Assembly: GCF_034120055.1 (NCBI RefSeq)
Contig: NZ_CP139368.1
Coordinates: 3,286,001-3,350,000 of the forward strand
Direction: 5' to 3'
Source: Microbacterium rhizosphaerae
GTDB lineage: Bacteria > Actinomycetota > Actinomycetes > Actinomycetales > Microbacteriaceae
Length of the DNA: 64,000 bases
The position numbers were made by a program, and so were the translations under genes. A model generated the notes under the pieces. The model was not told the origin of the DNA. It ran no database searches and worked only from the letters and a program-made list of their open reading frames with translations. Position 1 is the first letter of the stretch. Every line of letters begins with the position of its first letter. Positions 963-11,092 of this stretch are shown here, one piece after another.

Positions 963-2444
963 TCACCCGTGCTGGAACCAGGTGGTCTTCCAATCCGTGT
1001 AGTTGTCGAGGGCGTGACGGGACAGGTCGCGGCCGAAGCCGGACTGGCGGAAGCCTCCGAACGGCGTCGTCAGGCCGAGTGCGTCGACGGTGTTCACGGA
1101 CACCGTGCCGGCCACGAGCCACTCGGCTACGCGGTGCGCGCGGCGGAGGTCGTTCGTCCACAGCGATGCCGCGAGGCCGTAGTCCGTCGCATTCGCGAGG
1201 CGGATCGCATCCTCTTCCGTCTCGAACGGCAGCACGGCCACGAGCGGCCCGAAAACCTCGACGCGGTGGAGGTCGTGGTCGGCGCCGAGTCCCGTGACGA
1301 TCGCCGGCCGCAGATAGGCGTCCGAGCCCGTGATCGTGACGCGTTCACCGCCCCTCACGAGCTCGCCGTCGGCAGCGGCACGCGCGATCGCGGCGCCCAC
1401 GTCGTCGGCGTGGGCGCGGCTGATGAGGCTGCCGTTGCCGGGAAGGCCGGCGAGGGGATCGCCCGGCTCGTACTCGACGGATGCGGCGGCCAGCAGCCGC
1501 ACGAACTCGTCATGCGCCGCGCGCTCGACGAGGATGCGCGAGTTCGCCGAGCAGACCTGCCCCTGGTTGTAGAACGCGCCGAAGGCGGCCTTCGCGGCGG
1601 CGCTCTCCAGGTCGGCGTCGGCGAAGACGACGTTGGAGCTCTTGCCGCCGGCCTCCAGGGCGACGCGCTTCATGTTGGAGGTGCCGGCATCCACCATCAG
1701 CTGCTGGGCGACCGCCGTCGATCCGGTGAACGCGAGCGCGTCGATGCCGGGGTGCCGCGCGATGCGGGTGCCGACGGTCGAGCCGCGGCCCGGCACGACG
1801 TTCAGCACCCCGGCCGGGATGCCGGCCTCGAGCGCGAGGTCGCCGAGCCGCAGGGCGGTCAGCGACGTCTCCGTCGCCGGCTTGTGCACGACGCTGTTCC
1901 CGGCGGCGAGCGCCGGGGCGAGCTTCCAGGCCGCGATCTCGAGCGGATAGTTCCACGGCGTGATGACGCCGACGACCCCGAGCGGCACGCGCCGGACGAG
2001 CGCAGTGGAGCCGGGTGGGGTCGCCGGGATCTCGTCGTACCGCTTGTCGGCGAGCTCGCCGTACCAGCGGAAGGTCTCCGCCGCCCCGGGCACGTCCACC
2101 GTCAGCGTCTGGGAGATCGGCTTGCCCGAGTCGAGGGTCTCGAGCAGGGCGAGCTCGTCGAGGTTCGCCATGATCAGGTCGGCGAGGCGGATGAGGGCCT
2201 TGCCGCGCTCGGCCGCGCCGATCCGGCTCCAGTCGCCCCGGTCGTACGCACGACGGGCATGCTCGACGGCGAGGTCGACGTCGTGGGCGTCGCCCGCCGC
2301 GAGGTCGGCGAGGTGGGTGAGGGAGCCGGGGCTCGTCACCGCGAGGGTGGCGCCGGTGGATGCATCCACCCGCCGGCCGTCGATGACGGCACGGCCGTCG
2401 ATGACGAGCCCGCGGGCACGGGTCGTCCAGTCGGTGGCGGTCAT
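963..2444 (-). CDS. NAD(P)-dependent aldehyde dehydrogenase
   Basis: A 493-residue member of the aldehyde dehydrogenase superfamily, oxidising an aldehyde to the acid in the cytosol. The catalytic set is intact: Asn165 in PWNYP, the general base Glu264 in LEAGGK, the nucleophile Cys298 in NQGQVC, and the cofactor segment FTGSTAV (239-245). The family includes gamma-aminobutyraldehyde and betaine-aldehyde dehydrogenases; the substrate here is not readable from sequence. The ATG shares an ATGA overlap with the stop of the M20 hydrolase, so it is translationally coupled and is the last gene of the 5-gene operon. Although a longer open frame exists, this start matches the family N-terminus. A role in oxidising aldehydes released by the nearby amine oxidase is inferred. 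Confidence 0.93.
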   Translation of the reverse strand: MTATDWTTRARGLVIDGRAVIDGRRVDASTGATLAVTSPGSLTHLADLAAGDAHDVDLAVEHARRAYDRGDWSRIGAAERGKALIRLADLIMANLDELALLETLDSGKPISQTLTVDVPGAAETFRWYGELADKRYDEIPATPPGSTALVRRVPLGVVGVITPWNYPLEIAAWKLAPALAAGNSVVHKPATETSLTALRLGDLALEAGIPAGVLNVVPGRGSTVGTRIARHPGIDALAFTGSTAVAQQLMVDAGTSNMKRVALEAGGKSSNVVFADADLESAAAKAAFGAFYNQGQVCSANSRILVERAAHDEFVRLLAAASVEYEPGDPLAGLPGNGSLISRAHADDVGAAIARAAADGELVRGGERVTITGSDAYLRPAIVTGLGADHDLHRVEVFGPLVAVLPFETEEDAIRLANATDYGLAASLWTNDLRRAHRVAEWLVAGTVSVNTVDALGLTTPFGGFRQSGFGRDLSRHALDNYTDWKTTWFQHG

Positions 2445-3586
2445 TCTTCCTCCTCGGGAGCGGTGGCGACGTCGATCGCGGTCCACGCCATCAGCACGGC
2501 GGCGTCGAGCAAGGCCTGCTCGGCCGCGGGTCCGACGCACGCCGCGGCGAATTCCTTCTGGTGGTTCGAGTACGGCAGCGAGCCGACCCCGATGTAGGGG
2601 TGGATGGCGGGCACGCGCTGCGACACGTTCCCCATGTCGGTGGATGCGCGGTTCATGCGGCCCGCGACGGCGGGGTCGGCGAACACCCGTCCGCGCGCCA
2701 CGGCGTTCGCCTGGTACGCCGCGAGCGCGCCCTTGTCGGTGCGGAACTCGGCGTAGGGCTTGCTCTCCGGCTCGACCGTGAGCGTCGCGCCCGTCGCGAG
2801 CGCGCCGGCCTCGAAGCACCGCAGCACGCGCTCCTCGAGCCGGGCGAGCTCGTCGAGCGAGTTCGCCCGCCAGTACCACCGGCCTTCGGTGCGCTCGGGG
2901 ATCGCGTTCGGCGCGTGCCCGCCGATCGTCTGGATGCCGTGCACCCGCGTGTCTGCGGGCAGCTGCTGCCGCAGCATCCCGATCGCGACCTGGGCGATCA
3001 CGAAGGCGTCGTTCGCGTTGACCCCCTCGTCGGGGTAGGCGGCCGCGTGCGCGGACACGCCGTCGTAGGCGATGTGACTGTGCGCCACGGCGAACGGGCG
3101 CGCTTCCGCGACGTCGACCGGCGCCGGATGCACCATCATCGCGAGGTCGAGGTCCGCGAACGCGCCGGCCTCGAGAAGCTCGATCTTGCCGCCGCCGCCC
3201 TCCTCCGCCGGGGTGCCGTACACGCGGACCGTGATCCCGAGGTCATCGGCGAGGCGCGCGAGCGCGAGACCTGCGCCGACGGCGCTCGCCGCGATGAGAT
3301 TGTGCCCGCAGGCGTGGCCGAGTGCGGGCAGGGCGTCGTACTCGGCCATGATGCCGATGGTCACGGGGCCGCTGCCGGCCTCCGCGAGCAGGGCCGTCTC
3401 GAAGCCGAGATAGGCAGGCGTCACGCGGAAGCCGGCGTCGGCGAGGGCATCGCCGACCCACCCGGCTGCGCGGCGCTCCTGCCATGCCGTCTCGGGGTGA
3501 GCGTGGACCGTCTCGGAGAGAGCGATGAGCGGCCGGGATGCCGCCGAGACCGTCGCCTCCGCGGCGACCTTGAGCGTCTCACTCAT
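2441..3586 (-). CDS. M20-family metallo-amidohydrolase (AbgB-like)
   Basis: A 381-residue zinc-dependent amidase/peptidase. The metal-site motif HACGHN is at residues 91-96, the catalytic glutamate pair at 128-129 (PAEEG) and a further metal-ligand histidine at 153 (MVHP), as in M20D hydrolases such as p-aminobenzoyl-glutamate hydrolase or N-acyl amino acid amidohydrolases. The chosen ATG (MSETL) overlaps the DUF1028 stop by 8 bp and has GGAG about 9 bases upstream; a start 15 bases further upstream (MESPG) is open but has no Shine-Dalgarno. It is the fourth gene of the operon. The likely job is cleaving an amide or acyl bond of the pathway substrate; the substrate is unknown. Confidence 0.9.
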   Translation of the reverse strand: MSETLKVAAEATVSAASRPLIALSETVHAHPETAWQERRAAGWVGDALADAGFRVTPAYLGFETALLAEAGSGPVTIGIMAEYDALPALGHACGHNLIAASAVGAGLALARLADDLGITVRVYGTPAEEGGGGKIELLEAGAFADLDLAMMVHPAPVDVAEARPFAVAHSHIAYDGVSAHAAAYPDEGVNANDAFVIAQVAIGMLRQQLPADTRVHGIQTIGGHAPNAIPERTEGRWYWRANSLDELARLEERVLRCFEAGALATGATLTVEPESKPYAEFRTDKGALAAYQANAVARGRVFADPAVAGRMNRASTDMGNVSQRVPAIHPYIGVGSLPYSNHQKEFAAACVGPAAEQALLDAAVLMAWTAIDVATAPEEEE

Positions 3587-4250
3587 CCCCGGGGACTCCA
3601 TAGGACGGGGCGGCGGCCGGGGCGAGTGCGCGCGTCACATAGGCATCGCGCTGCGGCAGCCACCTGTCGAGGAGCCCGCCGAGCTCGGCGACCGGGTCGC
3701 CGTCGGTCCAGTCCACACGCAGGTCGGTGACGCGCCACCCGGCCTCGCGGACGACCGAGAGCCCGGCGGAGTGCACCGGCCCGGCCTCACCCCCGGCCGC
3801 CATCGCCGCCGTCATCGCGGACAGCAGTCGCACCTCGAGATCACCGGTCGCGACGGCGAACGCCTCCACCATCAGCTGCGGGATGTCGGCGGACGCGAGC
3901 ATGTTGCCGCCCGCCGCCGTGCCGTCGCCCACGGCATGCCCGAAGAGGCCCAGGGCGCGAGCGCCCGAGTACGCCCCCGTGCCGCCGCGCGCATCGATGA
4001 CGAGCAGCTGACGGAACTCGACGTCGGGCGCCGCATCCGTCTCCGCGCGCAGCGCATCGCCTGCCGGCATCCCCGCGCGCAGACGGTCCAGCACGGCCGG
4101 ACCGAGCCGCGGATCCGTCACGTTCTGCGAGTTCACGCCCCCGACGCCGTCGGCGAGGTGCACGCAGCGCGCCGCGACGGCGGGCGACGACGAGCAGATC
4201 GCGGAGCCGATGGCACCGGATGCGTCGCGCGCGACGATCGAGAACGTCAT
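3579..4250 (-). CDS. DUF1028 family protein (Ntn-hydrolase-like)
   Basis: A 223-residue protein beginning MTFSIVARD, the hallmark N-terminus of DUF1028, with the family's SSSPAVAARC and GVNSQN segments. The family is placed among N-terminal-nucleophile hydrolase folds, and Thr2 after Met removal is the candidate nucleophile; no reaction is firmly established. It overlaps the Rid protein by ATGA and the M20 gene by 8 bp, so the three are translated as a unit. DUF1028 genes are repeatedly seen near Rid and M20 genes, and the arrangement here suggests a dedicated hydrolytic step in the same pathway. Confidence 0.88.
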   Translation of the reverse strand: MTFSIVARDASGAIGSAICSSSPAVAARCVHLADGVGGVNSQNVTDPRLGPAVLDRLRAGMPAGDALRAETDAAPDVEFRQLLVIDARGGTGAYSGARALGLFGHAVGDGTAAGGNMLASADIPQLMVEAFAVATGDLEVRLLSAMTAAMAAGGEAGPVHSAGLSVVREAGWRVTDLRVDWTDGDPVAELGGLLDRWLPQRDAYVTRALAPAAAPSYGVPGDE

Positions 4251-4672
4251 TGCGCACCGCCCGAGACGACCGCGGTCGCGTCGATCTCGACAAGCCACTC
4301 GGGACGGGCCAGCGCACTCACCACGATCCCGGTCGACACCGGGTGGACGCCCTTCAGCCAGCGCCCCATGACCCGGTAGACGGGCTCGCGGTAGCGCGGA
4401 TCGATGAGGTAGACGACGACCTTCACGATGTCGGCGAGTGAGGATCCCGCCTCGCCGAGCAGCATCGCGATGTTGGCCATCGCCTTCTCCGCCTGGGCCT
4501 CGACGTCGCCGATGCCGATCGACTCGCGGGTCTCGAGATCCTGCCCGATCTGACCGCGCAGGTACACGACGCCGTTCGCGACGACGGCCTGGCAGAGGTC
4601 GTTGTCGAGGTTCTGCTCGGGGTAGGTCTCCTTCGTGTTGAAGGGGCGGATGCGGGTGTGCGTGGGCATCAT
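4247..4672 (-). CDS. Rid-family (RidA/YjgF-like) protein without the canonical arginine
   Basis: A 141-residue protein of the chorismate-mutase-like YjgF/YER057c/UK114 fold; VVYLRGQIGQDLE and the C-terminal WLVEIDATAVV are characteristic. Archetypal RidA enamine/imine deaminases carry an Arg in the PxRS motif near residue 105; the equivalent segment here is HPVST (110-114), so that Arg is absent and deaminase activity cannot be assumed. It belongs to one of the non-RidA Rid subgroups. It overlaps the flavoprotein stop and the DUF1028 start by 4 bp each, giving tight coupling. Start could be either of two adjacent ATG codons. Confidence 0.88.
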   Translation of the reverse strand: MMPTHTRIRPFNTKETYPEQNLDNDLCQAVVANGVVYLRGQIGQDLETRESIGIGDVEAQAEKAMANIAMLLGEAGSSLADIVKVVVYLIDPRYREPVYRVMGRWLKGVHPVSTGIVVSALARPEWLVEIDATAVVSGGAQ

Positions 4673-6015
4673 GCGGCTCCGGTGGTGGCGAGGGCTGGGC
4701 CCCCGCGCCGGGAGGCTCCACGCAGCGCGTCAGCGATGCGTGGAGTCGGCGCGGGGAGGGTGGGCTGGCGGGCCTCGTCGTAAGCGAGGTATCCGCGCTG
4801 GATGGCGATCTGGTCGGCGATGTACTTGGCGTCGTGCCAGACGCCCCAGAGGAAACTCGACCCGCGGCGCGACTGCCACGGGAGCCCGAGGAAGTAGACG
4901 CCCAGCTCCCGCGACACCCCGCGCTGGTGGCGAGGACGGCCGCGCTCGTCGAATGTGTCGACCTCGAGCCATGAGTAGTCGGCGCCGAAGCCGACGGCCC
5001 AGACGATGCTCGTGATGCCGGCCGCGGCGAGGTCGACCGACAGGACCGGGTCGGTGACGCAGTCGGGATCGCCACCGAGGACGTGCGCCTCCGGCTCCTC
5101 CGGGAGGTCGAGGCCGTTGCGCTCGACGAAGGCGTCGGCCTCGCGCAGCAGCGACAGGTAGTTCGCATCCCCCGCCGCGATGTTGGCCGCGAGGTCGGGG
5201 GCGAAGGCCATGACGCCGTCACGGTAGGCGCCGGCTCGCCCGAGCAACGTGATGCCCGACCCGGCCAGGCGGCGGAAGTCGACGGTGCGGCCGCCGTTCG
5301 CCCCGCTCACGGCGATCGTGACGTGCTCCGCGCCGGCGGCAGGAGCCGCCGCATCCCACTTCCCGAGCACGCCCAGCCACCAGCAGAAGTCGCGGTCGCG
5401 GTAGGACCGCGGTGGGCGGTCGTGCGGTCCGACGGCGAGGTGGACCTCTCGGCCCGACGCGCGGAGCTCGTCGGCGATCTGCACGCCCGACGAGCCGGCG
5501 CCGACGACCATCACGCCGCCGGGCGGCAGCTGTGCGGGGTTGCGGTACGAGCTGGAGTGCAGCTGGTGGATCCCGGCGTCCCCGGGCACGACGTCGGGGA
5601 TGATCGGCGTCTGGAACGCCCCGGTTGCCGCGACGACGAACCGCGCCTCGATCGGGCCGCCGCTCGTCGCGGCCCGGAACCCCGGGCGTCCCGCGTTGCG
5701 GCGCACGGAGGTGACCTCGACGCCGGTGCGGATCGGAGCGTCGAAGCTCCCCGCGTACGCGGCGAGGTAGTCGGCGACCTGCTCCTTGCCCGCGAAGGCG
5801 TCGGGGTCGAGGTCGAACTCCTTGCCGGGGAAGCGGTCGTGCCAGGCGGGCCCGTTGGCCACGAGCGAGTCCCAACGCCACGAGCGCCAGCGCTCCGCGA
5901 TGCGGTCGCGCTCCACCACGATGTGCGGCACTCCCCCGCGGGTCAAGTGCTCGCTCATCGCGATGCCGGCCTGGCCGCCACCGACGACGAGGACTTCCGT
6001 CTGCTCGCTCGACAT
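4669..6015 (-). CDS. FAD/NADPH-dependent flavoprotein monooxygenase (CzcO-like)
   Basis: A 448-residue two-dinucleotide-domain flavoprotein. The FAD site is VVGGGQAGIA near residues 10-19 and the NADPH site VGAGSSG around 171-177, separated by the VVAATGAF segment typical of flavin monooxygenases related to Baeyer-Villiger enzymes. The substrate is unknown. The ATG is preceded by GAGGAGGTAGGG, an excellent Shine-Dalgarno; open frame further upstream is not homologous. It is the first gene of the operon running through Rid, DUF1028, M20 and aldehyde dehydrogenase, and diverges from the LysR gene, whose operator dyad lies 79 bp upstream of its start. Confidence 0.9.
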   Translation of the reverse strand: MSSEQTEVLVVGGGQAGIAMSEHLTRGGVPHIVVERDRIAERWRSWRWDSLVANGPAWHDRFPGKEFDLDPDAFAGKEQVADYLAAYAGSFDAPIRTGVEVTSVRRNAGRPGFRAATSGGPIEARFVVAATGAFQTPIIPDVVPGDAGIHQLHSSSYRNPAQLPPGGVMVVGAGSSGVQIADELRASGREVHLAVGPHDRPPRSYRDRDFCWWLGVLGKWDAAAPAAGAEHVTIAVSGANGGRTVDFRRLAGSGITLLGRAGAYRDGVMAFAPDLAANIAAGDANYLSLLREADAFVERNGLDLPEEPEAHVLGGDPDCVTDPVLSVDLAAAGITSIVWAVGFGADYSWLEVDTFDERGRPRHQRGVSRELGVYFLGLPWQSRRGSSFLWGVWHDAKYIADQIAIQRGYLAYDEARQPTLPAPTPRIADALRGASRRGGPALATTGAA

Positions 6016-6093
6016 CCCTACCTCCTCGTAACCGTCTCCTCCATCGTCGCGAGCCGCCCTGCATCTGTACACTTCACAAACTCGACGTACCGC

Positions 6094-6108
6094 ATCAAGA
6101 GAATTGAT
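6094..6108. promoter_or_regulatory. LysR-type operator dyad, copy 1
   Basis: Perfect inverted repeat ATCAA-GAGAA-TTGAT, fitting the LysR T-N11-A rule (TCAA...TTGA). It touches the -10 box of the LysR gene and lies between it and the divergent flavoprotein operon, so it can serve autoregulation and activation of the operon. The same dyad, 13 of 15 bases identical, occurs upstream of the permease/amine oxidase operon at 10767-10781. Confidence 0.75.
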
Positions 6109-6113
6109 ACGAT
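6108..6113 (+). promoter_or_regulatory. -10 box of LysR gene, probable leaderless transcript
   Basis: TACGAT ends exactly 6 bases before the ATG at 6120 and no Shine-Dalgarno is present, which is the usual geometry of leaderless actinobacterial mRNAs. The LysR dyad overlaps its first base, consistent with autoregulation. Confidence 0.6.
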
Positions 6114-6119
6114 CGCGGT

Positions 6120-7043
6120 ATGGCACGCCTCGGCCGACCCGATCTGACGCTCGTGCAGCTGCGGTACTTCGTCGCGGCGGCGACCCGCCGATCCATGACC
6201 GAGGCCTCCCTCGATCTGCACGTCGCGCAGTCCGCTGTCTCGACGGCGATCGCCCAGCTCGAGCGCACCCTCGGCGTGCAGCTGTTCGTGCGGCAGCGCA
6301 GCAAAGGGCTCGCGATGACGGATGCCGGCGAGCAGCTGCTGCGCGACGCGCAATCGCTGCTGTCTCAGGTCGACGAGATGACGGATGCCGTCCGCGGCCA
6401 GCACCACGACGTGCGGGGGACGCTCCGCCTCGCATGCTTCGTCACACTGGCGCCGTTCGTGCTGCCGCGGCTGATCTCGCGCGTCGAGCAGGAGCATCCG
6501 GATCTGCGCGTCGAGATCATCGAGGCCGACGTCGACGGCACGGTGGAGCTGCTGCTCAGCGGCTCCGTCGAGGGCGCCATCGCCTACGACTTCGGCGAAG
6601 TGCACGACCTCGCCTTCGACCACCTCTACGCGGCGCCGCCGCACGTCATCCTGTCGTCGGAGCATCCGCTGGCCCGGCACACGCGCCTGCGTCTCGCGGA
6701 GCTCGCGGGGCAGGACCTCGTGCTGCTCGACCTCCCGCACTCCCGGGAGTACTTCCTCGGGATGCTGCGCGACGCCGGAGTCGATCCGCAGATCCGCTAC
6801 AGCTCGCGCAGCTACGAGACCGTGCGCTCGCTCGTCGCCCGGGGTCACGGCTACTCCGTGCTCAACCACATCCCGCAGTCTCCGCGCACCTACGACGGCG
6901 GGCAGCTCACGGCACTGCCGATCGCGGATGCCGTGCCGCCCCTGGACGTCTGCTTCGTCCGGGTGAAGGACGTCCGGCCGACGGCACGCGTGAGGGTCAT
7001 CGCATCCCTGGCCCGCGAGCTCTTCGGCACCCCCGCCTCCTGA
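6120..7043 (+). CDS. LysR-family transcriptional regulator
   Basis: A 307-residue regulator with the N-terminal winged helix-turn-helix (about residues 8-67; VAQSAVSTAIAQLERTLGVQLF and MTDAGEQLL are classical) and a periplasmic-binding-protein-like effector domain from about 95 to 300. It is divergent from the flavoprotein operon and convergent with the amine oxidase operon. Its presumed operator occurs at both operon promoters, so it likely senses an amine or a pathway intermediate and controls both; the effector is unknown. Confidence 0.93.
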   Translation: MARLGRPDLTLVQLRYFVAAATRRSMTEASLDLHVAQSAVSTAIAQLERTLGVQLFVRQRSKGLAMTDAGEQLLRDAQSLLSQVDEMTDAVRGQHHDVRGTLRLACFVTLAPFVLPRLISRVEQEHPDLRVEIIEADVDGTVELLLSGSVEGAIAYDFGEVHDLAFDHLYAAPPHVILSSEHPLARHTRLRLAELAGQDLVLLDLPHSREYFLGMLRDAGVDPQIRYSSRSYETVRSLVARGHGYSVLNHIPQSPRTYDGGQLTALPIADAVPPLDVCFVRVKDVRPTARVRVIASLARELFGTPAS

Positions 7044-7057
7044 CCCACCCTCCCCCT

Positions 7058-7139
7058 CGCGAACCCATACTCCTTTCCCGAACCCTCACCCGATGGACGT
7101 CCATTGGATGTGGGTTCGGGAAAGGAGTGTGGGTTCGCG
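7058..7139. repeat. 82-bp near-perfect inverted repeat between convergent genes
   Basis: Two 41-base arms share one centre at 7098/7099. The outer 28 bases of each arm match with a single C/T difference, and the innermost 12 bases (ATGGACGTCCAT) are a perfect palindrome. Each arm itself repeats GAACCC. There is no T-run on either side, so it is not a classical intrinsic terminator, although it could stop or stabilise the two converging transcripts. It looks like a REP/BIME-type extragenic palindromic element; other copies in the genome would be expected. Confidence 0.8.
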
Positions 7140-7160
7140 GAGTACCGAGGAAGGGCGCGC

Positions 7161-9119
7161 TCAGCAGTGGCAGGCGCCCTCGGCGCAGTGCGCCTTCGTC
7201 GCCGGCGACGGCGGCAGATCCAGCGCCGGGTTCTGGTCGAAGAACCCGGTGGGCTTGAGCGTGAAGCCCGTGTGGTCGACGGGCATGATCGGCCAGTCCT
7301 CCGTGCGCGGGAAGTGCGTGAGCCCGAAGCTGTGCCACAGCACGATGTCCTGCCCGTCGATGTCGCGGTCGGCCGCGGTGTACTCGGGCAGACCGGCGCT
7401 CCCGATGCTCTGGTTGACGAAGTCGCCGGCGGGGTACCGCTCGTCCTGCGCGAACCGCGTCACCCACAGGTGCTCGGTCGCGAAGGCCGCGCGGCGCGCG
7501 ATGGAGGAGTCCTCCGCCATCGCGAGCGTCGGCTGCCCCTCGGGGAACAGCGTGTAGGCGACGTGCTCGCCGACGATGTTTGTCTTGTCGGTGTTGACGA
7601 TCTCCCACACTCGGCCGACGCTCCCGTCGGCCTTGCGCCTGGCCTGGGACTCGGTGCCCAGAACCCGCCGTGAGCGTGTGAACGCGTTGCCGTGCGGATT
7701 GCCCTCCCCCATCGGCACGCGCTGGAGGTCGAGCTCGTGCACGGCGTTGCGCTCGCCGTCCACGGCCATGTCGAGGCGGGCGCAGAAGAGGTGCTGGTGG
7801 TACGGCGCCGCCAGCCCCGGCGCGATCTGCGACGCATACGGGTAGTCGCGCTCCGGGTGTCGCGCGGTGAAGACGATGCCGGTCGCCTTCGCCTCGAACT
7901 CGATCGTCCCGTCGAGGTAGAGGTACCAGTAGAACCCGTAGTCGTAGTTGCCGACCGTCGTGAAGAAGCTCACGACGAGGCGCCGCTGGCGGCGGGTCGA
8001 GCGGTGGTTCGCCCACTCGTCGGTGTGCTTCCACAGCAGCCCGACGTCCTCCTCATGGATGCAGATCGCCTGCGGGATCTCGCGCGGATTGCCGAAGTCG
8101 TCGGCCACCACGGGCGACAGGTAGGTGATCTCGCCCAGGCAGTCGCAGCCGAGCTCGAGGGAGTTGGCATCCCGCCCCACGAGGTACTCGCCGGTGTCGA
8201 AGTAGTTCTGCCAGGAGCGGTAGGGAGCCGGGTCGCCGTAGGGCACCACCATCTCGGCGATGGATGCGCGGTCCACGATCGAGCGCCGCGTGCCGCGGTC
8301 GTCGAACCCGATGCGACTGAGGACGAGACCCTCGCGCGCGTCGAACCCGACGTGCAGGTCCCACTTCCACCACCGCAGCACGTTGCCGTCGAGCGTGAAG
8401 CTGGGCCCCTCGGGCTGCGTGATGGCGATGGGCTTGAGGTCGGTGCGCAGCGGCCCGGTGAGCTCGGGATCCTCGAAGTTGCCGTTCGTGAGCGGGATGT
8501 CGGCGGGGCCGTCGTCGATGATCCGCACGACGCGGCGGTCGATCATGTCCACGAACGCGACGAGCTGGTCGACGGGGTGCCCCCACGCGTAGTCCGACGG
8601 ATCGCGCTGCACGAATGCGAGACCGCGCAGCAGCCGCCGCCCCTCCTCGCCCGCGTAGTCGAAGATGCCGGCCGACAGCGGGGCGACCCGCACATCGTCG
8701 GGTGTGAGCCCGCGGGTCGCGAGGGCTGCCCTCCATCCGTCGTCCGCCGCCAGGATCTCCTCGATCGCCGCGAACTCCTCCAGCAGCACGGGGGCCTGCC
8801 CGACGAGCGCCGGGTCGACATCCGTCGCCGCGACCGTCGCGCCGGCCGTGAGGTCGACCACCAGATCGGTCGTCGCACCCGTGGACGTGTCGAGCAGGAT
8901 GACGCGTGCCCGCCGGTGCGGCACGGCCGAGGGTTCGGCGGCCCACGCGCGCAGCTCGCGCTTCGCCGGGTCGTGCAGGCCGACGTACGCGAAGCGCACG
9001 CGATCGCCGATGCGGCCCTCGTCGACGAGGTGATCGCGCACCGCGGAGATCTCGTCGGCGGTCAGCGCATCCAACGGGTGGGTGCGGCGAACGGTCGGGA
9101 TGGTGAGCAGCTGGGTCAC
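7161..9119 (-). CDS. Copper-containing primary-amine oxidase (TPQ type)
   Basis: A 652-residue amine oxidase that deaminates a primary amine to aldehyde, ammonia and hydrogen peroxide. The topaquinone precursor is Tyr392 in NYDY (391-394), the catalytic base Asp308 in [10 protein letters not shown], and the copper ligands His441 and His443 (HQH) and His602; each lies about ten residues after its counterpart in Arthrobacter globiformis amine oxidase, so the enzyme should be complete. The GTG start fits the family N-terminus and has GGAG upstream. No signal peptide, so cytosolic. The C-terminus ends in a Cys/His-rich tail (HCAEGACHC). It follows the APC permease by 26 bp, which probably imports the amine. 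Confidence 0.95.
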
Positions 9120-9145
9120 GATGTCTTCTCCGGGTCCTTGGTCTG

Positions 9146-10657
9146 TCAGTCGCCGACGAGCGCGGCGAACTCCGCGTCGTCGAGCTCTTCGCTCTGCGCG
9201 CCGCGGCGACTGCGCTCCCAGGCATAGCCGACCACCGCGAGGATCGCGATCACGACGAGCGTGCCGATGGTGAACAGCTCGAACGTCGGCCGGCCGACGC
9301 CCCACACGTCCTGGAAGTCGTACGTCACGCCCAGCAGGCCTTCCAACGTTCCCGGGAACACCGCCACCCACGACCCGAGCAGCACCCACGCGTAGATGAC
9401 GACGGTGCAGACCCAGAGTCCGACGGTGCCGCCCGGCACGCGGAAGGGCCGCGGCACGTCGGGGTGCTTGCGGCGCAGGGCGATGATCGACGGGAAGATC
9501 ACGAGGTACGACAGCAGCAGGGTCGAGATGGCGACCGTCAGCACGACCGTGAACACCGCGGCGGTGGTGCCGTTCAGCAGGACGGTCGCGGCGATGCAGA
9601 ACACGGAGGCGACGACGCCGGACAGCAGGTTCATGCGCACCGGCGTGCCGAGGCGCGGCGAGAACGCGCCGAAGTAGCGGAAGAACGCGCCGTCGGCGCC
9701 GGCCGCGGCCTGCACCCGGTCGGAGGCGATCATCCACGCGCTCGCCTGCGTGAGCACGACGAAGACGAACAGGACGGCGGCGATCCACAGGAGCGTGTCC
9801 GCTGCGGGGCCGTAGACCGTGAAGACCTCCTTGAACGCGTCCAGCAGACCGCTCGCACCCTGCACCTTCTGGGCCGGGAGCACCGCGAGGATCGCGAAGA
9901 TCGGGACGAGGTAGCACAGGATCGAGATGAGGCCCGAGGATGCCACAGCCTTCGGGACGTCGCGCTGCGGGTCGCGCATCTCCTCCGCGGCGCCGTTCGG
10001 CGCCTCGAAGCCCACGACGGCGAAGAGGATGACGGGCGTGACCGCGAGGAAGCCGCCGAGGGTCGGCGAGAAGTCCCCCGCCGCGTAGCCGTGCACACCG
10101 TACCGGAGGGCGTAGATGCCGACTGTGACGACGAAGATCACCAGCAGAGCCACCTTGACGATGCCGCCCGCCGCCACGATGTGCTTGCCGTACTGCAGGC
10201 CGATGATCGCGGTGGCGATCGCGAGCCAGATGAAGACGAGCTTGAACGCGTAGTCGGCGAGACTGCCCGACGTCAGCGGCGAGATGTAGGCGTCCCACGT
10301 GGCCGCCGAGATGAAGACCAGCGAGCCGCCCATCCAGAGCGGGTTGGTGACCCAGTAGAACATCGTCGCGATGGCAGCCGCGAGCTTGCCGAAGGCGAGC
10401 CGCACCCACACGAACGGGCCGCCCTCGCCGTGGAACGAGCTGCCGAGCTCGGCGACCACGAGCGCGTACGGGAACAGGAAGGTCACGCCGATCACGGCCG
10501 TCCAGGTGAAGGCCTCGGCGCCCCCGCCCGCGGCGATCTGCGCGATCACATCGATCGAGATGATCGCGCTGATCGAGAGCAGGATGATGTCGAGCCGGCC
10601 CAGGGTCTTGCGGAACGTCTGGGTGCGGATATCGGATGTCTCGGGTTGGACGCTCAT
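9146..10657 (-). CDS. APC-superfamily amino acid/amine permease
   Basis: A 503-residue integral membrane protein with about 12 hydrophobic segments and the APC N-terminal signature ([20 protein letters not shown], then [16 protein letters not shown]). It lacks a signal peptide, as usual. The start ATG has AGGAG eight bases upstream; the longer open frame contains the operator region. It is first in a two-gene operon with the amine oxidase, which makes a primary amine the most likely substrate. A LysR dyad sits 110 bp upstream of the start. Confidence 0.92.
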
Positions 10658-10766
10658 CGAGGACTCCTCTGTCCATGGGCCTGCGGGTCGGGTCCGCGTG
10701 CCGCGAATGGATCGAGTCAAGCCCACGCGGTCACCCGCGCGCCAATATCGGTCGGCGGACCACTGG

Positions 10767-10781
10767 ATCAACGGAATTGAT
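10767..10781. promoter_or_regulatory. LysR-type operator dyad, copy 2
   Basis: Perfect inverted repeat ATCAA-CGGAA-TTGAT, 13 of 15 bases identical to the dyad at 6094-6108 including three of five spacer bases. On the minus strand TTGATC within it and TATTGG 18 bases downstream could form -35 and -10 elements of the permease operon, so the regulator would contact RNA polymerase here. Confidence 0.72.
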
Positions 10782-10891
10782 GCAGTCAGTCCCAGTTCAT
10801 CAGATCGAGGGATGCCGTGACCGTGCGCGCGTCATCGCCGGGGAAGCCAGGTGTGCGGCGCGGCGGCGCGACCGAACACCGTGCGCGCCGC

Positions 10892-11092
10892 TCAGCGCCA
10901 GTCGGCCACCGCAGCCGCCGCCTGCAGGTCGCGATAGGCGCGCTCCTCCTCGCGGCCGACCCGCCGGCCGCGGTGCTCGAGCCCGCGCGGCGACCATCGC
11001 CAGCTGAGCAACGGTGTGCGCGTCCGCTCGGGCGTCCCAGCGTTGACGTGCCGGCTGAACACCGCCGGCGAGTGGATCTCTTGTACCGTCAT
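10892..11092 (-). CDS. Small hypothetical protein (66 aa), unrecognised
   Basis: An ATG-started frame of 66 residues beginning MTVQEIHSP and ending in AVADWR. It is rich in Arg and Glu (REEERAYRDLQ), with a plausible amphipathic C-terminal helix. No family is recognised. The Shine-Dalgarno is weak (GGAAG). The start codon directly abuts a perfect palindrome at 11093-11114, which is the main reason to take it seriously. It could equally be a chance frame. Confidence 0.35.
   Translation of the reverse strand: MTVQEIHSPAVFSRHVNAGTPERTRTPLLSWRWSPRGLEHRGRRVGREEERAYRDLQAAAAVADWR

Follow-up and report, generated by a model that had tools for sequence, protein, structure and literature searches.

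The subject of this report is a pair of short palindromes in a window of 64,000 nucleotides (positions 3,286,001–3,350,000) of the 4.06-Mb single-contig genome of Microbacterium rhizosphaerae. The two dyads, ATCAAGAGAATTGAT at 6094–6108 (operator 1) and ATCAACGGAATTGAT at 10767–10781 (operator 2), are very likely the primary sites of the LysR regulator encoded between them, which would exert HinK-type control over operons for the uptake and breakdown of histamine. Between positions 963 and 10,781 the window holds two leftward operons together with lysR, which diverges from the first of them. The first operon encodes, in order, a flavoprotein monooxygenase, a RidA protein, a DUF1028 protein, an M20 amidohydrolase and an aldehyde dehydrogenase; the second encodes an APC permease followed by a copper amine oxidase. 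Operator 1 (T6095-N11-A6107) is common to the divergent lysR and hinF-like promoters, operator 2 lies upstream of the permease–amine oxidase operon, and both were confirmed at the positions where a first-pass annotation of this DNA had read them by eye.

The dyads are rare. The exact pattern ATCAA-N5-TTGAT has two matches in the window, both of them the dyads (100 shuffles gave a mean of 0.00), and a search of the whole genome for scattered copies, which the first-pass annotation had proposed as a check, finds exactly two, operator 1 and operator 2. Across 366 genomes of the genus (Microbacterium is the genus of most of the named close relatives) the exact pattern occurs at 83 sites in 70 genomes, and five of these sites fall at the orthologous locus of four genomes: two in the genome studied here and one each in G224, G295 and G432. 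Away from the locus, the exact dyad occurs about 0.21 times per genome in the genus, so that roughly 1.5e-5 copies are expected per 250-bp promoter. Loosening the pattern to ATCA-N7-TGAT gives nine matches in the genome, against 0 for the reversed control, made up of the two operators, four sites in or at the edge of ribosomal RNA genes (two operons) and three others, one of which falls inside a 613-residue frame. The loosened pattern was rejected as a finder of more regulon members, having gained only the ribosomal RNA positions and three unconvincing sites.

What is conserved among relatives is the core ATC-N9-GAT, in a fixed geometry. LysR searches covered 199 genomes of the family and 366 of the genus, and close relatives of the regulator (at least 76% identity) are found in G224, G295, G266, G226, G371, G433, G432, G447, G384 and G069, with G224, G295, G371, G433 and G384 each counted once. 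The gene order is kept in these relatives, save that G266 is without the permease and G069 without permease and oxidase. Upstream of lysR the core is present in 11/11 close loci (the locus studied here included), ending 10–12 bp before the lysR start, and it also precedes lysR in Pseudoclavibacter L052; every one of the 12 permease or oxidase genes examined (10 genomes) has it upstream. Other genera, whose regulators mostly show 40–54% identity, have it ahead of the hinF-like gene in 16/19 windows. When the spacing is varied (ATC-Nk-GAT, k from 3 to 20), other values of k reach at most 4/11 at lysR, 3/12 at permease/oxidase genes and 3/19 at hinF-like genes, in windows of 150 and 230 bases, lengths that were picked once the sites had been seen. 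The 19 windows omit L094 (the locus studied here), L103 (a repeat of G069), L109 (a near copy of L108), the paralogues L115–L118 (42–46% identity) and L119 (a second copy beside L104). Among the 46 LysR loci fetched from family and genus, a count outside which 8 further LysR matches fall that had no locus, 32 have a hinF-like gene within a short flank, the near duplicates L016/L019 and L017/L018 included; ATC-N9-GAT lies within 260 bases upstream of that gene in 30, and the next best spacing reaches 7/32. Both the spacing control and the drifting of spacer and flanks speak for selection on the half-sites. Exact five-base arms are found, among the ten other close genomes, only in G224, G295 and G432. 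The matching perfect arms noted at first are thus present in both dyads but partly accidental, because it is ATC-N9-GAT that is conserved; where orthologous loci retain the genes, the core persists whereas the exact arms do not always do so.

On the permease/oxidase side the dyad forms part of a composite promoter, in which it is followed at a distance of exactly 19 bp by TATTGGC; a TTGACT-like hexamer lies 18–19 bp past TTGGC(G/C) in 14/14 composite promoters, this last element having been read by eye. By conservation, the permease promoter (10715–10745, minus strand) would consist of a -35 element TTGGCG at 10745–10740, a 19-bp spacer and a -10 element TTGACT at 10720–10715. The operon would then start near 10708, with the dyad centred at about -66, which agrees with the first placement of operator 2 in the promoter of this operon. 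With gaps of 14–24 allowed, the dyad with TATTGGC after it is found at 13 sites in 10 of the 11 orthologue genomes, every gap being 19, and at none in G069. Across the 366 genomes of the genus the composite pattern has 15 sites in 12 genomes (13 before permease or oxidase genes, one before an NCS1 permease and one unexplained), and it matches 10/10 genomes with a LysR of at least 76% identity and 2/356 others, having been derived from those ten. G466 provides an independent test: in this genome, which is 83% complete and gave no LysR match, a composite site precedes permease and oxidase genes. The composite site of G402 (gap 15) was taken as chance, there being no hin gene beside it. A looser composite built on ATC-N9-GAT matches in 44 of the 199 genomes of the wider family; a few of these are hin loci with a gap of 19 (e.g. 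G024, G096, G100 and G158), and most of the others have other gaps. An oxidase gene that stands apart from the permease gene (G433, G371) is preceded by a dyad of its own, and a dyad on a separate contig of G384, listed before its genes were read, lies upstream of a permease gene. In the locus of G266, which is without a permease gene, three ATC-N9-GAT dyads (L058:12225, 12296 and 12388) are seen upstream of the oxidase gene.

A second, weaker ATC-N9-GAT (minus strand ATCCCTCGATCTGAT, 10799–10813) is located exactly 32 bp upstream of operator 2, about three helical turns away. This arrangement is seen in 5/14 composite promoters: those of G000 and G224, the oxidase promoters of G433 and G371, and that of an NCS1-type permease of 468 aa in G371 (L174:3866–5272, G371:C5). 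The last of these is preceded by a composite site some 260 kb from the locus that keeps the gap of 19, TATTGGC, TTGACT and the second dyad, and because the full composite promoter is kept, this unlinked gene is probably a true member of the regulon, where it may serve as a second importer.

On the opposite side of the locus, operator 1 is embedded in two divergent promoters. TACnnT directly follows the dyad in 11/11 close loci, which suggests TACGAT (6108–6113, plus strand) as the lysR -10 element; the overlap reported in the first-pass annotation stands as contact, but amounts to just one base (6108) plus direct adjacency. The element sits 5–7 bp from the ATG in close loci, so the lysR messenger, starting near 6120, is probably leaderless. 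Towards the hinF-like gene, all 11 close loci share the order dyad, 21 bp, hexamer, 18 bp, hexamer, the first hexamer being GTGTAC, CTGTAC, CTATAC or (in G069) GTATGC and the second GACGAT-like or TAGCCT. The corresponding promoter (6043–6072, minus strand) would have a -35 element GTGTAC at 6072–6067, an 18-bp spacer and a -10 element GACGAT at 6048–6043, with a start near 6036 and the dyad centred at about -65. A further conserved block, ATCTGTACA (6063–6071, plus strand), is placed 31 bp from operator 1, and ATCTGTA(C/T)A is found at exactly this distance in 10/11 close loci; it is possibly an activation binding site. In G266, G433 and G371 the block broadens to the palindromes ATCTGTACAGAT or ATCTGTATAGAT.

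The regulator itself (6120–7043, plus strand, 307 aa) has both an N-terminal HTH_1 domain (PF00126, 67.8 bits, cut-off 26.6) and a C-terminal LysR substrate-binding domain (PF03466, 134 bits, cut-off 28). An inverted repeat of the T-N11-A form near its own promoter, a class feature of LysR proteins, is present in 11/11 lysR windows, and the conserved core ATC-N9-GAT is itself a T-N11-A site, as the first reading had recognised. The best full-length relatives in the PDB are 3fzv and 6m5f, the title of the latter naming HinK. Identity to HinK (6m5f) is about 33% (E value 5.8e-47), the next kind of protein in the PDB scoring 9.5e-27, and among LysR proteins with solved structures the regulator is therefore nearest to HinK. 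A structure predicted from 43 sequences (predicted local distance difference test, pLDDT, 87.9) has HinK among its top three structure matches and fits 3fzv with a root-mean-square deviation (rmsd) of 1.7 over 210; an earlier model, built from 6 sequences, reached a pLDDT of 53.6 and was set aside as poor. The protein is most likely a HinK-type activator that represses its own gene. In the excerpts of PMC8231116, Pseudomonas HinK regulates the hinD and hinF promoters and itself, and the association of a LysR protein with hinF-L-H-G and hinD is found here too. In contrast with HinK of P. aeruginosa and P. putida, which is encoded beside hinDAC, the regulator lies between two operons, and among its targets a copper amine oxidase takes the place of the aminotransferase HinC.

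A number of observations weigh against this reading. The conservation counts take in sequences related by descent, and they overstate independence because orthologous sequences share ancestry; ATC-N9-GAT is also a loose pattern, occurring at 0.33 per kb in the loci compared. Two of the 32 hin loci (L007 and L048) are without it, and L097, L111 and L114 are the misses among the 19 hinF-like windows of other genera, L097 being scored so with a site present beyond the 230 bases used. Conversely, 4/14 LysR loci without a reachable hinF-like gene carry the core within 150 bases before lysR, two of them (L005 and L006) in genomes that have hin genes some kilobases away. G069 keeps hinFLHG-D and the operator, and the 20 kb read there showed neither a permease nor an oxidase gene, while Pseudoclavibacter L052 keeps the dyad and TACCAT without the hinF-side hexamers. 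A sigma-70 consensus scan of 5950–11000 flagged no promoter, for which reason the -35 and -10 assignments are drawn from conservation and position; elements this weak would fit activator-dependent promoters. The model of the regulator fits 6m5f at full length with an rmsd of 14.1 over 279, and because of this large value the structural support comes from the ligand-binding domain. Plasmids outside the family add to this list. Plasmid records matching the hinF-like gene number 720, and six of them were inspected: those of Paracoccus, Neorhizobium and Caballeronia have no ATC-N9-GAT upstream of the hinF-like gene, a difference of these three proteobacterial loci from the present one, and that of Mycolicibacterium has none at the hinF-like gene and one shortly before lysR. 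The Streptomyces and Arthrobacter plasmid loci carry the core. On the Arthrobacter plasmid, where it lies between lysR and the flavoprotein gene, the same cluster is accompanied by an amine oxidase and, within the operon, by an aspartate ammonia-lyase gene (the HinI step). Given this pattern, the operator is well supported for the Microbacteriaceae and perhaps extends to some other Actinomycetota.

The genes of the locus very probably take up and break down histamine. The order flavin monooxygenase (4669–6015), RidA family enamine deaminase (4247–4672, PF01042), DUF1028 protein (3585–4250, PF06267, the single copy in the genome) and M20 amidohydrolase (2441–3601, TIGR01891 and PF01546), all on the minus strand, is that of hinF-L-H-G, to which the genes are assigned by gene order and enzyme class. 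It is followed by a hinD-like aldehyde dehydrogenase (963–2447, minus strand, PF00171), which scores below cut-offs with PuuC and StyD models. As the excerpts of PMC8231116 and PMC6467879 describe, Pseudomonas hinFLHG encode a flavin monooxygenase, an enamine deaminase and the proteins HinH and HinG, with HinD as an aldehyde dehydrogenase and HinK as a LysR-type protein responsive to imidazole-4-acetic acid; according to the former, the hinF-L-H-G block carries the breakdown of imidazole-4-acetate. In the second operon, the APC-superfamily amino acid/amine permease (9146–10657, minus strand, PF13520) is proposed as the histamine importer, and the copper amine oxidase of the AGAO/histamine-oxidase type (7161–9122, minus strand, PF01179 and PF21994, best PDB matches 1av4 and 1rjo) as a substitute for HinC. 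The hin clusters of P. putida U and Brevibacterium share the hinF-L-H-G order, the aldehyde dehydrogenase and a permease, and those of Brevibacterium also have a histamine oxidase homologue and a HinK homologue of 32–36%, the strains having been growth-tested on histamine (excerpts of PMC6467879). The difference is that enzymes, importer and regulator are here combined in one locus with a shared operator; the excerpts on Brevibacterium mention none. Part of the text of PMC7532241 reports a Glutamicibacter histamine oxidase that is inducible by histamine. A text search of the literature for DUF1028 gave no paper, and among the matches listed for one literature collection none describes an actinobacterial hin operator.

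The substrate is the point on which an alternative fares best. Histamine is the putative substrate by homology, and the closest PDB matches of the amine oxidase, the candidate enzyme for the first step, are phenylethylamine oxidase structures; models of phenylacetaldehyde dehydrogenase likewise pick up the aldehyde dehydrogenase, at scores below cut-offs. The operators could thus be real and the inducing substrate another aryl-alkylamine, such as phenylethylamine or tyramine, with a pathway that is merely hin-like, but a hinF-L-H-G block adjoins the operator and the nearest full-length solved relative of the regulator is HinK, and we consider this improbable. It is very unlikely that the dyads belong to some other regulator encoded away from the locus, such as one of the genome's other LysR-type proteins. 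T-N11-A dyads are common to many LysR proteins, and G178 has a hinF-like promoter with a dyad whose nearest LysR relative is about 8 kb off; against this, the composite site tracks lysR through the genus, within the limits of a pattern derived from the close genomes, and lysR itself has the dyad in every close locus. Similarly slight is the probability that the LysR protein is mainly a self-repressor and the second dyad a mild tuning of the permease operon or a remnant: operator 1 does abut the lysR -10 element, but operator 2 is held at a fixed distance from TATTGGC with a TTGACT-like element after it throughout the composite promoters (the latter as read by eye), and an oxidase gene split from the permease has its own dyad. 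A chance meeting of the two palindromes, which are short and recur occasionally elsewhere in the genus, is ruled out for practical purposes by their rarity in genome and genus and by their conservation with fixed spacing, as the first-pass annotation had anticipated.

The preferred reading, in which HinK-type control acts through both dyads, can be set out as a mechanism. One LysR tetramer would sit at 6094–6108, touching the lysR -10 element, and repress lysR; from its position near -65, operator 1 would also serve the hinF-L-H-G-D-like operon that diverges from lysR. At 10767–10781 another tetramer would play the same role for the operon of permease and copper amine oxidase. The inducer would most likely be imidazole-4-acetate or a related compound of the pathway, as in Pseudomonas HinK, and in its presence a conformational change in the bound tetramers would bring RNA polymerase to the two target promoters. 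Histamine would then enter through the permease and be converted by the oxidase and the aldehyde dehydrogenase to imidazole-4-acetate, which the HinF/L/H/G-type enzymes would take on towards aspartate. The early proposal that one regulator governs the hinF-like operon, its own gene and the amine oxidase operon is in this way supported and extended, with binding and regulation being what we infer; the histamine pathway, the likeness to HinK, the 19-bp distance to TATTGGC, the second dyad at 32 bp and the unlinked permease all go beyond it. The layout is close to the canonical divergent LysR promoter, which the excerpts of PMC4834489 describe as a T-N11-A site near -65 overlapping the divergent regulator promoter: the type of dyad, its position at about -65/-66 and its contact with the lysR promoter agree, whereas the second intact dyad 32 bp upstream in a subset of the target promoters differs.

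Two further features of the locus lie outside the promoters. An open reading frame of 189 aa (299–868), about 94 bp past the aldehyde dehydrogenase gene and 79% identical in G224, is perhaps part of the hinF-like operon; we take its product, on reading it, to be dihydrofolate reductase/RibD-like. The gap between lysR and the amine oxidase gene, which converge, contains a near-perfect and very long hairpin at 7058–7138, with a predicted energy of -77.7 kcal/mol (z score -11.5). Its arm has a single other match in the genome, with 3 mismatches, so it is not a dispersed repeat; it is perhaps a two-way terminator, though one without a T tract.

The finding is a new case of a well-known type of bacterial switch, and because this kind of switch is textbook material the surprise is modest. 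A pattern seen by eye has become an operator code that led to the permease–oxidase operon in one more genome, an incomplete one, and on a separate contig, and the cluster with the DUF1028 protein gains a likely function in the breakdown of histamine. In our judgement it is rather probable that the locus represents a histamine regulon found throughout the Microbacteriaceae, in which one HinK-like protein reads a rigid code (ATC-N9-GAT, 19 bp, TATTGGC), members are recruited by acquiring that code, and a subset of promoters has phased pairs of dyads. The unlinked NCS1-type permease of G371 would have been recruited in this manner, as would, on its own, an oxidase gene that stands apart from the permease gene. 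If this is true, two phased dyads 32 bp apart would let two dimers or tetramers bind one face of the DNA. The pairing of regulator and promoter is also a candidate sensor of histamine or imidazole-acetate for an actinobacterial background.

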